Assembly: GCF_010093305.1 (NCBI RefSeq)
Contig: NZ_PDWS01000003.1
Location: 227,001 to 291,000, forward strand
DNA from: Pseudoxanthomonas sacheonensis
Lineage (GTDB): Bacteria; Pseudomonadota; Gammaproteobacteria; Xanthomonadales; Xanthomonadaceae
Reading direction: 5' to 3'
Length of the DNA stretch: 64,000 nt
How positions within the stretch are numbered: position 1 is the stretch's first letter; every line of letters starts with the position of its first letter. Of this stretch, positions 43,013 to 46,644 are shown piece by piece. The translations under genes and the position numbers were made by a program. A model generated the notes under the pieces. The model searched no databases. It was not told the origin of the DNA and saw only the letters and a list, made by a program, of their open reading frames with translations.

Positions 43013-43507
43013 CTATGCGGCAGGATCCTGCTTGACGATGGTGATGTGGCCGTTGGTTTCCAGCACGGCCAAACCGATGTCCTCCACCTCCACGCAACCG
43101 GCTTCGCGCATCGCCTTGTCGAAATCGGCGCGGCTGATCAGCTCTCTGCGCAGCACATCCTTGTAGACCTTGCCGTTGCGCGCCAGCAGCACGGGCGAGC
43201 CTTCGATCATCGCCTCTACCCTGGGACTGCGCGCGGACACCAGGCCCACGGTCCAGTTGAGCGCGATCAGGGTCACCGCCAGCAGCAGGCCGCCACCGAC
43301 GGAGGTGTCCTGGCCCAGCAGCGCGTTCTGCACCGCATTGCCCAGCAGCACCACCAGCAGCATGTCGAAAGGAGTGAACTGCCCCATGGTGCGTTTGCCG
43401 GAAGCGCGGATCATCACCAGCAACACGAAGTACACGATGCACGCACGCAACACGAAGACCCACCACGGCATGGCCAGGTCGAACATCTCTTCAAACACTT
43501 GCGGCAT
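43013..43507 (-). CDS. DUF421 (YetF-like) membrane protein
   Basis: A 164-residue protein with two or three N-terminal TM helices (WWVFVLRACIVYFVLLVMI; LLVVLLGNAVQNALL; LLLAVTLIALNWTVGLV) and a C-terminal soluble domain beginning SPRVEAMIEGSPVLLARNGK, then LLREL-like VLRRELISRADFDKAMREAG. The RxxGKRxxxQxTxFD pattern (RASGKRTMGQFTPFDMLLVV) is diagnostic of DUF421. Function unknown. Start at ATG 43507 (MPQVFEEMF); an upstream in-frame ATG at 43594 lies in the sRNA terminator and is not used here. It is oriented like polA and the sRNA, downstream of both. Confidence 0.88.
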   Translation of the reverse strand: MPQVFEEMFDLAMPWWVFVLRACIVYFVLLVMIRASGKRTMGQFTPFDMLLVVLLGNAVQNALLGQDTSVGGGLLLAVTLIALNWTVGLVSARSPRVEAMIEGSPVLLARNGKVYKDVLRRELISRADFDKAMREAGCVEVEDIGLAVLETNGHITIVKQDPAA

Positions 43508-43578
43508 GGTCCGGTTCCGGTACGGGGATGCGCGCACAGTAACGCAGAGCATTGGCCGCTCCGCAAAAAACCTTCCGC

Positions 43579-43618
43579 AAATAAAAAGCCCCACCGACCA
43601 GGGGGGGGTCAGCGGGGC
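43579..43618 (-). terminator. Intrinsic terminator of the sX13-like RNA
   Basis: On the minus strand GCCCCGCTGACC-ccccccT-GGTCGGTGGGGC, a twelve-pair stem with two G-U wobbles, followed by TTTTTATTT. The C-run loop is probably functional in target pairing. Confidence 0.9.
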
Positions 43619-43705
43619 CAGGGAACTAGGCCTGGGGAGGGGCCTTCGTTCCGGAGATCACTCCAGGGGATGGGAGAGATCCAGCGACAGACCTTGCATC
43701 TGTCA
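43580..43705 (-). ncRNA. sX13: sX13-like C-rich small RNA
   Basis: Read on the minus strand: hairpin GACAGA...TCTGTC (43704-43686); a stretch with TCTCCCATCCCC; a hairpin GGAAC-gaa-GGCC...GGCC-ta-GTTCC (43652-43622) with loop CCTCCCCA; and a terminator with a CCCCCCT loop. Three exposed C-rich motifs, about 120 bases and a position just downstream of polA match sX13 of Xanthomonas, an Hfq-independent regulator that pairs with G-rich ribosome-binding sites; I recall that sX13 is also next to the DNA polymerase I gene. A -10-like CATATA (43716-43711) gives a start near 43705. E. coli Spot 42 and Pseudomonas ErsA also lie beside polA. Confidence 0.75.
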
Positions 43706-43884
43706 CGGGCTATATGACCAGACCGCGCATGGATAGTTCGTGAAGATTCCGGTTAAAAAACCGTAAGGTTTAAGGCATATTCAGTTTATTGAACTAGCCA
43801 GTATTGAATTAAAGACGCAAGCGCCGCTACAGATATCGGCCGTAACTATCCGCTTTGTCACGGATTTGGGCCGGAATACCCGCG

Positions 43885-46644
43885 TCAATGCGCCTCATCC
43901 CAGTTATCGCCCACTCCGCTGTCGACCACCAGGGGAACGGAGAGTGTCGCGGCACCCGACATTCTGCCGGTGACTTCCCGGAGCAGCGTCTCGACGAAAT
44001 CCTGTTCAGCTTCGAACACCAGTTCGTCGTGCACCTGCAGGATCATCAACGCGCGCGCCGCGTGGTCGGCCAGCCAGGCATCCACCGCGATCATCGCGCG
44101 CTTGATGATGTCGGCGGCGGTGCCCTGCATGGGCGCATTGATCGCGGCGCGCTCGGCGCCGGCGCGCTGGCCCTGCGTGCCCTTGTTGATGTAGTCCAGG
44201 TAGAGGCGGCGGCCGAACACGGTTTCCACGTAGCCCTGCTCGCGCGCCTGCTGGCGCGTGCGCTCCATGTAGTCGCGCACGCCCGGATAGCGGCTGAAGT
44301 ACAAGGCGATGTAGTCCTGCGCTTCGCCGCGGCCGATACCCAGCTGCCGCGCCAGCCCGAACGCGCTCATGCCGTACATCAGACCGAAGTTGATGGCCTT
44401 GGCGGCGCGGCGCTCGTTGCCGGTGACGTCTTCGAGCTTGCGGCCGAACACTTCCGCCGCCGTGGCCTTGTGCACGTCGACGCCGGATTCGAACGCACGC
44501 ACCAGGCCGGGATCCTCGGACAAATGCGCCATGATCCGCAGTTCGATCTGCGAGTAGTCGCAGGCGACCAGCTTGCGTCCGGGCGGGGCGACGAAGGCGC
44601 GGCGGATGCGGCGGCCATCGTCGGTACGGATCGGGATGTTCTGCAGATTGGGATCGGACGAAGACAGGCGGCCGGTGGCGGCACCTGCCTGGTGGTAGCT
44701 GGTGTGCACGCGGCCGGTTTGCGGGTTGACCATTTCCGGCAGCTTGTCGGTGTAGGTGCTGCGCAACTTCGCAAGCCCGCGGTATTCCAGGATCACGCGC
44801 GGCAGTTCGTGCTGGTCGGCGATGGCTTCCAGCGCTTCTTCGTTGGTGGAAGGCTGCCCGGTCGGTGTCTTCAGCATCGCCGGCAGTTTCAGTTCTTCGA
44901 ACAGCAAGGCCTGCAATTGTTTGGGCGAATCGAGATTGAAGCTGCGCCCGGCCAGTTCCGTCGCTTTCTGCTGCGCGGCGAGCATGCGCTTTGACAGGTC
45001 GGCGGACTGGCGGCGCAGTTCGTCGGCGTCGATCATCACTCCGTTGGCTTCGATGCGCTCCAGCACCGGCACCAAGGGCATTTCTATTTCGCGATACACG
45101 CTTTCCAGGCCGGGCTCGGCGGCCAGCCTGGGCGACAGGGTGCGATGCAGGCGCAGCGTGATGTCGGCGTCCTCGGCCGCGTAGCGCGTGGCGTCGTCCA
45201 GCGCGACCTGCGAGAACAGGATCTGCTTGGCGCCTTTGCCGGCCACCTGTTCGTACTTGATGGTGTCGTAGCCCAGATAGCGCTTGGCCAGGCTGTCCAT
45301 GTCGTGGCGGCTGCTGCCCGAGTTCAACACGAAGCTTTCCAGCATGGTGTCGTCGGCATAGCCGGCCACCGCGACGCCATGGCGGCGCAGGACGTGCAGG
45401 TCGTATTTTCCGTGCTGTCCGAGCTTCTTCTTGCCGGCGTCGGCGAACAGGGGCGAAAGCGCAGCCAGCGTCGCGGCGCGGTCGAGCTGCACGGGCGCGC
45501 CGGGATATTCGTGCGCCAGCGGAAGGTAGACGGCCTTGCCGGGTTCGACCGCAAAGCTCAATCCCACCAGGTTGGCCTGCATGGGATCCAGGCTGTCGGT
45601 TTCGCTGTCGAAGGCGAACTCGTCGGCTTTGCGCAGCGCGCCTATCAGCGCATCGAGTTGTCCGGCGCTGAGCACGGTTTCGTATTGGCCCTGCGCCGAC
45701 AGCGCAGGATCGATGGCCGAGGTCTCCATCGCAGCGGCGGCCACGAAACCGGTACCGCGCGCGCGGCCCGGCTCCTTTTCCGCGACCGGACCGGCGGTTT
45801 CGCCGCCCAGTTCCTTCAGCGCCTGGTTGAATCCGTAACGCTGGTAAAGCTGCCGCAGCGAATCGACATCGCGTTCGCGCATGCCCAGGCTTTGCGCGTC
45901 GCCGTCCAGCGCGACGTCGGTCTTGATGGTGACCAGTTGGCGGTTCAGCGGCAGGCGTTCCAGCGCGGCGCGCAGGTTGTCGCCGATCTTGCCCTTGATG
46001 TCGGCGGCGTGCGCCATCACCCCGTCCAGCGTGCCGTACTCGGCCAGCCATTTGGCCGCCGTCTTGGGACCGCACTTCTCCACGCCGGGCACGTTGTCCA
46101 CGGCGTCGCCCATCAGCGCTAGCAGGTCGACGATCTGCCCGGGCTTGACGCCGAATTTCTCGAACACGGTCTCGTCCGAATCCATGCGGCTGCCGCTCAT
46201 GGTGTTGACCAGCGCCAGCCCGGGCCGCACCAGCTGCGCGAAATCCTTGTCGCCGGTGGAAATGGTCACCTCGATTCCATCGGCATTGGCCTGCAAGGCC
46301 AACGTACCGATCACATCGTCGGCTTCCACGCCGTCGACGCGCAGAATGGGCATGCCCAAGGCCTGCACGATCTCGCACATCGGCATGACCTGCGCGCGCA
46401 GGTCGTCCTGCATGGCGGCGCGGTTGGCCTTGTACAGCGGATACAGGTCGTCGCGGAAGGTCTTGCCGGGCGCGTCGACCACGAAGGCGACGTACTCGGG
46501 ATTCTCCTTCAAGGTCGCGCGCAGCATGTTGACCACGCCGAACAGCGCGCCGGTGGGCTCGCCCGCGGCATTGGTCAGCGGAGGAAGCGCATGGAAGGCG
46601 CGGTAGAGGTAACTGGAACCGTCGATCAGTACGAGTCTTGGCAT
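43885..46644 (-). CDS. polA: DNA polymerase I
   Basis: Repair and Okazaki-fragment-processing polymerase, 919 residues. The 5'-3' exonuclease occupies about 1-290 (MPRLVLIDGSSYLYRAFHAL; RVDGVEADDVIGTLA; STGDKDFAQLV). The 3'-5' exonuclease begins near 310 and keeps its acidic residues in EFAFDSETDSLDPM. The polymerase domain has motif A VACDYSQIELRIMAHLSEDP, the O-helix RRAAKAINFGLMYGMSAFGL and motif C LQVHDELVFEAE. All three activities should be intact. It diverges from the DUF2782 lipoprotein gene and is followed by the sRNA. Confidence 0.98.
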   Translation of the reverse strand: MPRLVLIDGSSYLYRAFHALPPLTNAAGEPTGALFGVVNMLRATLKENPEYVAFVVDAPGKTFRDDLYPLYKANRAAMQDDLRAQVMPMCEIVQALGMPILRVDGVEADDVIGTLALQANADGIEVTISTGDKDFAQLVRPGLALVNTMSGSRMDSDETVFEKFGVKPGQIVDLLALMGDAVDNVPGVEKCGPKTAAKWLAEYGTLDGVMAHAADIKGKIGDNLRAALERLPLNRQLVTIKTDVALDGDAQSLGMRERDVDSLRQLYQRYGFNQALKELGGETAGPVAEKEPGRARGTGFVAAAAMETSAIDPALSAQGQYETVLSAGQLDALIGALRKADEFAFDSETDSLDPMQANLVGLSFAVEPGKAVYLPLAHEYPGAPVQLDRAATLAALSPLFADAGKKKLGQHGKYDLHVLRRHGVAVAGYADDTMLESFVLNSGSSRHDMDSLAKRYLGYDTIKYEQVAGKGAKQILFSQVALDDATRYAAEDADITLRLHRTLSPRLAAEPGLESVYREIEMPLVPVLERIEANGVMIDADELRRQSADLSKRMLAAQQKATELAGRSFNLDSPKQLQALLFEELKLPAMLKTPTGQPSTNEEALEAIADQHELPRVILEYRGLAKLRSTYTDKLPEMVNPQTGRVHTSYHQAGAATGRLSSSDPNLQNIPIRTDDGRRIRRAFVAPPGRKLVACDYSQIELRIMAHLSEDPGLVRAFESGVDVHKATAAEVFGRKLEDVTGNERRAAKAINFGLMYGMSAFGLARQLGIGRGEAQDYIALYFSRYPGVRDYMERTRQQAREQGYVETVFGRRLYLDYINKGTQGQRAGAERAAINAPMQGTAADIIKRAMIAVDAWLADHAARALMILQVHDELVFEAEQDFVETLLREVTGRMSGAATLSVPLVVDSGVGDNWDEAH

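Follow-up and report, generated by a model that had tools for sequence, protein, structure and literature searches.

The sX13 RNA gene downstream of polA in Pseudoxanthomonas sacheonensis, probably one version of an older polA-engB small RNA

The window, as we call the whole 64-kb stretch of Pseudoxanthomonas sacheonensis DNA that was analysed, carries polA on its minus strand, followed on the same strand by a small RNA gene that lies ∼190 nt past the polA stop codon (Table 1). The Rfam family sX13 (RF02232), whose founding RNA was reportedly first mapped in a Xanthomonas transcriptome study, matched this gene over the entire model (115 of 115 positions) in a covariance-model search, with 92.6 bits and an E-value of 3.2e-16 against a gathering cut-off of 50 bits. 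The original prediction, made from the letters alone, had proposed an sX13 homologue beside polA and was borne out in family as well as in place; the minus-strand architecture that it described, with hairpins, a GGAAC/GTTCC stem and a terminator with a CCCCCCT loop and a T-tract, was recovered in every part at computed coordinates. sX13 was the sole Rfam match in the window at gathering scores and is a single-copy gene in the genome. No covariance-model match over the cut-off was obtained between the window RNA and ErsA (RF01719) or anti-hemB (RF02837), and Spot 42 (RF00021) matched neither the window nor the genome. The gene is a known family member and ordinary as such, sX13 beside polA having already been published for Pseudoxanthomonas (PMC3771888).

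Downstream of the RNA lies a gene of the DUF421/YetF family (43013-43594, minus strand). Its open frame extends back to 43594, into the sX13 terminator, and an ATG at 43507 is the likelier start. The engB gene of this genome is located on another contig than polA and the RNA. Among the 80 named loci compared, the nearest named relative by PolA is Pseudoxanthomonas sp. CF125 (97%).

Table 1. Positions in the window of the RNA gene, its predicted promoter and its upstream neighbour
Feature	Position	Strand	Basis or remark
polA, DNA polymerase I, upstream neighbour	43885..46644	-	Same strand as RNA
Predicted -35 element GAACTA, sigma-E-like promoter	43734..43739	-	Inferred
Predicted -10 element TCATA, spacing 16	43713..43717	-	Inferred
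Match of class-wide models R1 and R3, promoter -10 through terminator	43580..43721	-	Model search
5′ hairpin HP0, arms GTGACAGA / TCTGTCGC	43684..43706	-	Covariation; upstream of and across Rfam 5′ end
RF02232 sX13 match, model 1-115	43582..43695	-	Rfam covariance model
Hairpin 1, C-rich loop CATCCCCT at 43672-43665	43656..43682	-	Fold
Hairpin 2, GGAAC/GTTCC stem, C-rich loop CCTCCCCA at 43640-43633	43622..43652	-	Fold
Hairpin 3, intrinsic terminator, loop CCCCCCT at 43606-43600, T-tract at 43587-43579	43579..43619	-	Stem 43619-43588

The minimum-energy fold of 43710-43575 (minus strand) consisted of four hairpins with a free energy of -66.7 kcal/mol (z -5.28), and none of 200 shuffled sequences was as stable. 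Three stem-loops with loops of 4C, 4C and 5C are a trait of sX13, and CATCCCCT, CCTCCCCA and CCCCCCT have this composition. Loss of the C-rich loops among relatives had been named at the outset as grounds for giving up the assignment; when 40 Xanthomonadales sequences were folded singly, 39 kept three hairpins with C-rich loops and the remaining one (L225) showed two. For the 5′ hairpin HP0, four of six pairs changed on both sides in an alignment of the RNA's own family (A3), as did five of six in an alignment of family f12 (A4), and the stem sequences of the two families are unlike. Because HP0 covaries in both families on unlike stems, this hairpin, which the Rfam model cuts through, likely belongs to the transcript.

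HP0 bears on where the RNA starts. Published sX13 has a length of 115 nt and starts 175 bp after polA (PMC3771888), a 5′ end that falls within the HP0 loop. The loop sequence AACG starts 172-175 nt past the polA stop, or no more than 10 nt from that, in 7 of 14 named Xanthomonas loci (six at 172-175, one at 183), the others having it at 159 (four loci) or at 357 or more (three). A published end within the HP0 loop suggests a processing site, and could also be the true start. In P. sacheonensis the 5′ end of the primary transcript is predicted near 43706, ∼11 nt upstream of the Rfam start.

Across the order, RF02232 matched 237 of 397 genomes at E≤1e-3, with 142 over the cut-off; among the matches listed, all came from the RNA's own family or f12, the exceptions being a single f4 genome and a single f11 genome. 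The model remained below its cut-off in all 24 genomes of the order that were searched further, mostly without any match at E≤1e-3, and as a probe for a deep family it was discarded, those 24 having yielded sub-threshold matches only. Some of the weak matches were situated directly after polA (G005, G014, G024 and G237); we therefore suspected a wider family and built a model, R1. Apart from this, the sX13-like RNA of two f11 genomes (L255 in G021, L256 in G011) was found on another contig than polA, to which the gene may have moved, and G225 carries on its second contig a diverged second copy of sX13 (L201, 74 bits) apart from the first.

Stretches downstream of polA were fetched from 95 genomes that belong to the class but to other orders. 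Rfam at its cut-offs, applied to 92 of the 95, annotated the RNA site as anti-hemB in L139, L141 and L269, as ErsA in L186 and as nothing else. Among 40 stretches that were read, many had a like plan, namely a 5′ hairpin, a hairpin with a CCUCCCU loop, a hairpin with a UCCCCAA loop and a terminator with a C-rich loop. R1 was trained on 20 polA-downstream RNAs that had been chosen by eye in the flanks of that gene, and 19 of these come from outside the order; the reciprocal model R2 contains sX13 sequences alone; and R3 was made from 53 RNAs, none of them from the order of P. sacheonensis and none of them ErsA L186. All E-values of these models stem from short calibrations and are rough.

R1 matched 47 of the 96 sources in the other-order set (19 being training loci) and every one of the 40 sX13 loci L192-L231. 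It gave one match at E≤10 in the window, which was sX13 (E 5.3e-8), and sX13 was likewise its only match at E≤1e-3 in the genome (E 3.4e-6). Of 80 named Lysobacteraceae loci, 78 have an R1 match downstream of polA, and in the two exceptions (L038 and L052) the sequence ends <300 nt after polA. Among 23 polA stretches from order genomes with no or weak sX13, R1 produced 12 matches at E≤5, including its training locus L240; in L234 and L235 the match is on the strand opposite polA. In the reverse direction, R2 recognized 25 of the 96 other-order sources at E<1e-3, in the same places. R3 matched all 40 sX13 loci, the window RNA and ErsA L186, and in the 4-Mb genome sX13 was its only significant match (E 2.6e-8, the next at 0.089). 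Since a model free of the order thus finds sX13 as its sole good match in a genome, sX13 and the RNAs of other orders appear to be related, and we take R3, not R1, as the main evidence. The E-value of 3.4e-6 that R1 gives sX13 is no better than that of its best matches outside the class.

An alignment made with the model (A5), which hence leans to the model's structure, contained 147 double-change cells against 36 in shuffles, a signal that was lost when the partners were slid. For the consensus structure of hairpin 1, MAFFT aligned the loop but shifted the 5′ arm, so that the helix 1 stored in A5 is probably not the true stem. Pairing row by row gave a hairpin in 44 of 53 rows by the rule used, a few of these being plainly hairpin 2.

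In a sample of 276 genomes of the class, R1 had matches at E≤1e-3 in 157 and none in 119. A sample of the phylum gave, at the same threshold, 49 matching genomes out of 249, of which 15 belong to other classes (1.1e-6 to 7.9e-4). Three of these other-class matches were fetched (L327, L331 and L332) and neither polA nor engB adjoined any of them; a reach of the family beyond the class is not supported. In three genomes of the RNA's own family, R1 matched a second place besides sX13 (G001:C22:263738, E 4.2e-7; G023:C128:10116, 1.9e-6; G040:C4:113458, 8.3e-6); these matches are possibly a further C-rich RNA. A second, weak match of R1 and R3 occurs in L203 (752-872, plus strand), ∼330 nt from sX13 and on the other strand. 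Tandem copies follow polA in L268 (five, 169-924), L266 (three), L170 (two) and, in the same family as P. sacheonensis, L250 (two), and G547 and G640 have four R1 matches each.

We surveyed the genomic place of the RNA in 128 genomes, among the matches listed of the 157 R1-positive ones; the polA place was listed for 90 of the 128. An RNA was counted as adjoining when it was ≤3 kb downstream of polA or ≤3 kb from the 3′ end of engB. It adjoined polA in 59 of the 90 (40 of these not training genomes, the RNA sharing the strand of polA in 37 of the 40) and engB in 20 of the 31 genomes where it was not beside polA, as well as in 24 of the 38 lacking a listed polA place. The RNAs next to engB were convergent with it in 40 of 44 cases. 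Altogether 103 of the 128 genomes have the RNA beside one or the other gene; by our estimate, two 3-kb stretches in a genome of ∼3 Mb would capture well under 1% of matches by chance. Neither gene was shown beside the RNA in the other 25; engB was not found for 10 of them, and one, G597, has the RNA beside polA by tblastn. In 34 genomes whose polA flank was previously unseen, the neighbour was polA in 20, engB in 8 and neither in 6. A tblastn search of the 30 best loci identified polA in 25, engB in 22 and either in 28. For the phylum sample, polA or engB was present at 23 of 30 fetched loci; the remaining seven are L309, L313, L314 and L326, of the class, and L327, L331 and L332. E. coli has the order polA, spf, yihA (engB). 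The simplest reading of these data is an ancestral order polA-RNA-engB, the RNA having remained beside one of the two genes wherever these became separated, as in the P. sacheonensis genome.

The RNA shares a promoter-like motif in addition to its place. GAACTT-N16-TCnnA, which we take to be the sigma-E/AlgU promoter type, precedes the start of the R1 match at a nearly fixed distance, 18 nt upstream in most of 71 loci. A promoter score of at least 8.5 was reached in 54 of the 71, with 0.77 expected from shuffles, and the -35 box lies outside the stretches used to build R1. The window motif, GAACTA-N16-TCATA, scores 8.5, a value that 3% of shuffles reach for the window locus alone. The 71 loci comprise 44 of the 47 R1-matched loci of the other-order set (first copy only, with L123, L174 and L259 dropped) and 27 others, which are the window, L194, L200, L205, L210, L217-L231 and seven of the polA stretches L232-L254; left out were the remaining loci of the RNA's own family and L234, L235, L244, L247, L250, L255 and L256. 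The gene is probably tied to the envelope-stress sigma factor in many lineages.

Within its own family the sigma-E-like box is not general. Of 78 named loci sought, 76 were found, with GAAC kept in 53 and GAAC together with TCATA in 33; many of the Xanthomonas and Stenotrophomonas loci deviate from the box. Xanthomonas has GATC with TTATA in 9 of 13 loci. Most of the Xanthomonas loci that were located carry GATCC at the box and TTATA as the -10 element. The -35 box of this family sits inside a longer conserved block, CTTCACGAACTATCCATG (window 43745-43710; named loci L032-L111).

Noting that Spot 42 and ErsA also adjoin polA, the original prediction had raised the possibility of one ancestral small RNA site. 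For ErsA this is well supported, as it is for anti-hemB: both share the place with sX13 and are joined to it by model matches. For Spot 42 the agreement is one of place only. R1 and R3 gave no match to E. coli spf, and Spot 42 as a sequence relative of sX13 is not supported; RF00021 matched none of the 276 sampled class genomes, and hence this sample cannot show a transition. When Rfam was applied at the R1 matches of 20 further loci, six were anti-hemB, two were ErsA and 12 belonged to no Rfam family.

Family membership, structure, conservation and place of the RNA were established by computation. We read the window, with a probability of roughly 0.85, as carrying the sX13 gene, the Xanthomonadales version of an old polA/engB RNA with ErsA and anti-hemB as kin, equipped with a predicted sigma-E-type promoter and an upstream start that includes HP0. 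New in this reading is the suggestion that sX13 is one version of an old gene of the Gammaproteobacteria (as defined by GTDB), placed between polA and a convergent engB or beside one of them. It is unlikely that sX13 was instead invented in the Xanthomonadales, with the other C-rich RNAs downstream of polA having converged on loops against ribosome-binding sites. Such an origin would accord with the occurrence of C-rich loop RNAs in distant bacteria (PMC3771888), with the failure of RF02232 to reach its cut-off in 24 of 24 further-searched genomes of the order and with the modest R1 match to sX13 in the genome (E 3.4e-6). However, R3, which holds no sequences of the order, finds sX13 as its sole significant match in 4 Mb, the reciprocal model R2 works too, and both the place (103 of 128 genomes) and, in most orders seen, the promoter type agree.

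The promoter-like box present upstream in most loci tested speaks in addition against a simpler account, by which the element is the mere terminator region of polA, a 3′ UTR and no separate RNA gene. That account draws on the location of the element, on the polA strand ∼190 nt past the stop codon, and on the terminator in which it ends. In 20 genomes, however, the RNA adjoins engB with polA not within 3 kb (some of these assemblies have many contigs), and sX13 of Xanthomonas is a separate RNA of 115 nt (PMC3771888); we regard the 3′ UTR as very improbable. We give even less credence to a protein-coding or dual-function RNA after the manner of Spot 42 with SpfP. The annotation of E. coli spf with this small protein provides a precedent, but conservation in the sX13 gene and its relatives falls on C-rich loops and on stems whose changes compensate each other, a pattern that does not look like coding sequence.

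What the RNA does can be projected from Xanthomonas. sX13 has been described as a 115-nt RNA always located downstream of polA in Xanthomonas, Xylella, Stenotrophomonas and Pseudoxanthomonas (PMC3771888). In Xanthomonas its three C-rich loops target mRNAs that carry G-rich motifs close to their start codons, and both the loops and the motifs were shown to be needed; Hfq is not required and hfq itself is repressed (PMC3771888). Targets, promoter use, 5′ end and processing in P. sacheonensis are predictions. An envelope-stress sigma factor would probably start the RNA near 43706, and the product, about 115-125 nt long, would fold into four hairpins, the last being the terminator. Loops 1 to 3 may then base-pair with mRNAs at G-rich stretches of the ribosome-binding site or the first codons, which, as in Xanthomonas, would mostly block translation of several mRNAs without Hfq. 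The hfq gene of P. sacheonensis reads ATGTCCAAGGGGCAA, with GGGG at +9 to +12 counted from the A of its ATG, close to the sX13 site reported for Xanthomonas (PMC3771888).

Three Rfam families that are filed apart, sX13, ErsA and anti-hemB, appear to be one gene in one place across the class, and this class-wide RNA is unannotated in Rfam at most places scanned. Whether the polA locus of other bacteria encodes RNAs was asked in the 2013 paper on sX13 (PMC3771888), and the survey offers a concrete answer together with a model to search with. A full-text literature search, whose reach mostly excludes subscription papers, showed, among the papers listed, none joining sX13, ErsA and anti-hemB; the available text of a paper that contains polA, Spot 42 and ErsA draws no link among them (PMC10306973). 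We put forward a further step tentatively, holding it to be rather more doubtful than probable. By this proposal a single envelope-stress RNA gene, its C-rich loops directed at ribosome-binding sites, would have been present between polA and engB in the last common ancestor of the Gammaproteobacteria (GTDB). Its direct descendants would include sX13, ErsA and anti-hemB, with many carriers never annotated; in enterics and vibrios the same gene would have been rebuilt in sequence and brought under CRP in place of sigma-E, giving Spot 42. The joining of the three Rfam families would allow findings on ErsA and sX13 to be compared directly, and it makes the origin of Spot 42 a question open to test.

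Compared with published sX13, the predicted gene is longer at its 5′ side: the complete HP0 hairpin and the sigma-E-like promoter fall outside the RF02232 match, and neither is mentioned in the text on sX13 in PMC3771888. ErsA of Pseudomonas (also Pseudomon-1) resembles sX13 in its polA-engB place (PMC8575079), its sigma-E-type promoter and its C-rich terminator loop; its locus L186 is matched by R1 and R3, and the ErsA loci L321 and L324 by R1. ErsA is strictly sigma-22-dependent (PMC7565897) and uses Hfq in repressing algC (PMC8395346), whereas sX13 acts without Hfq (PMC3771888). Anti-hemB, also known as Burkholderia RNA 7, is a 105-nt transcript in Burkholderia cenocepacia (PMC5688073), and all nine matches to it that were obtained fall on the R1 site beside polA or engB; its name suggests a possible antisense role to hemB. 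Spot 42 of E. coli occupies the same site as sX13, between polA and the convergent yihA/engB, and ErsA has been called its functional orthologue (PMC8395346). The sX13 paper itself compares its polA locus with those of Spot 42 and the alpha-r7 RNAs of Alphaproteobacteria, the latter being neighbours of polA with three hairpins and apical C-rich motifs (PMC3771888).
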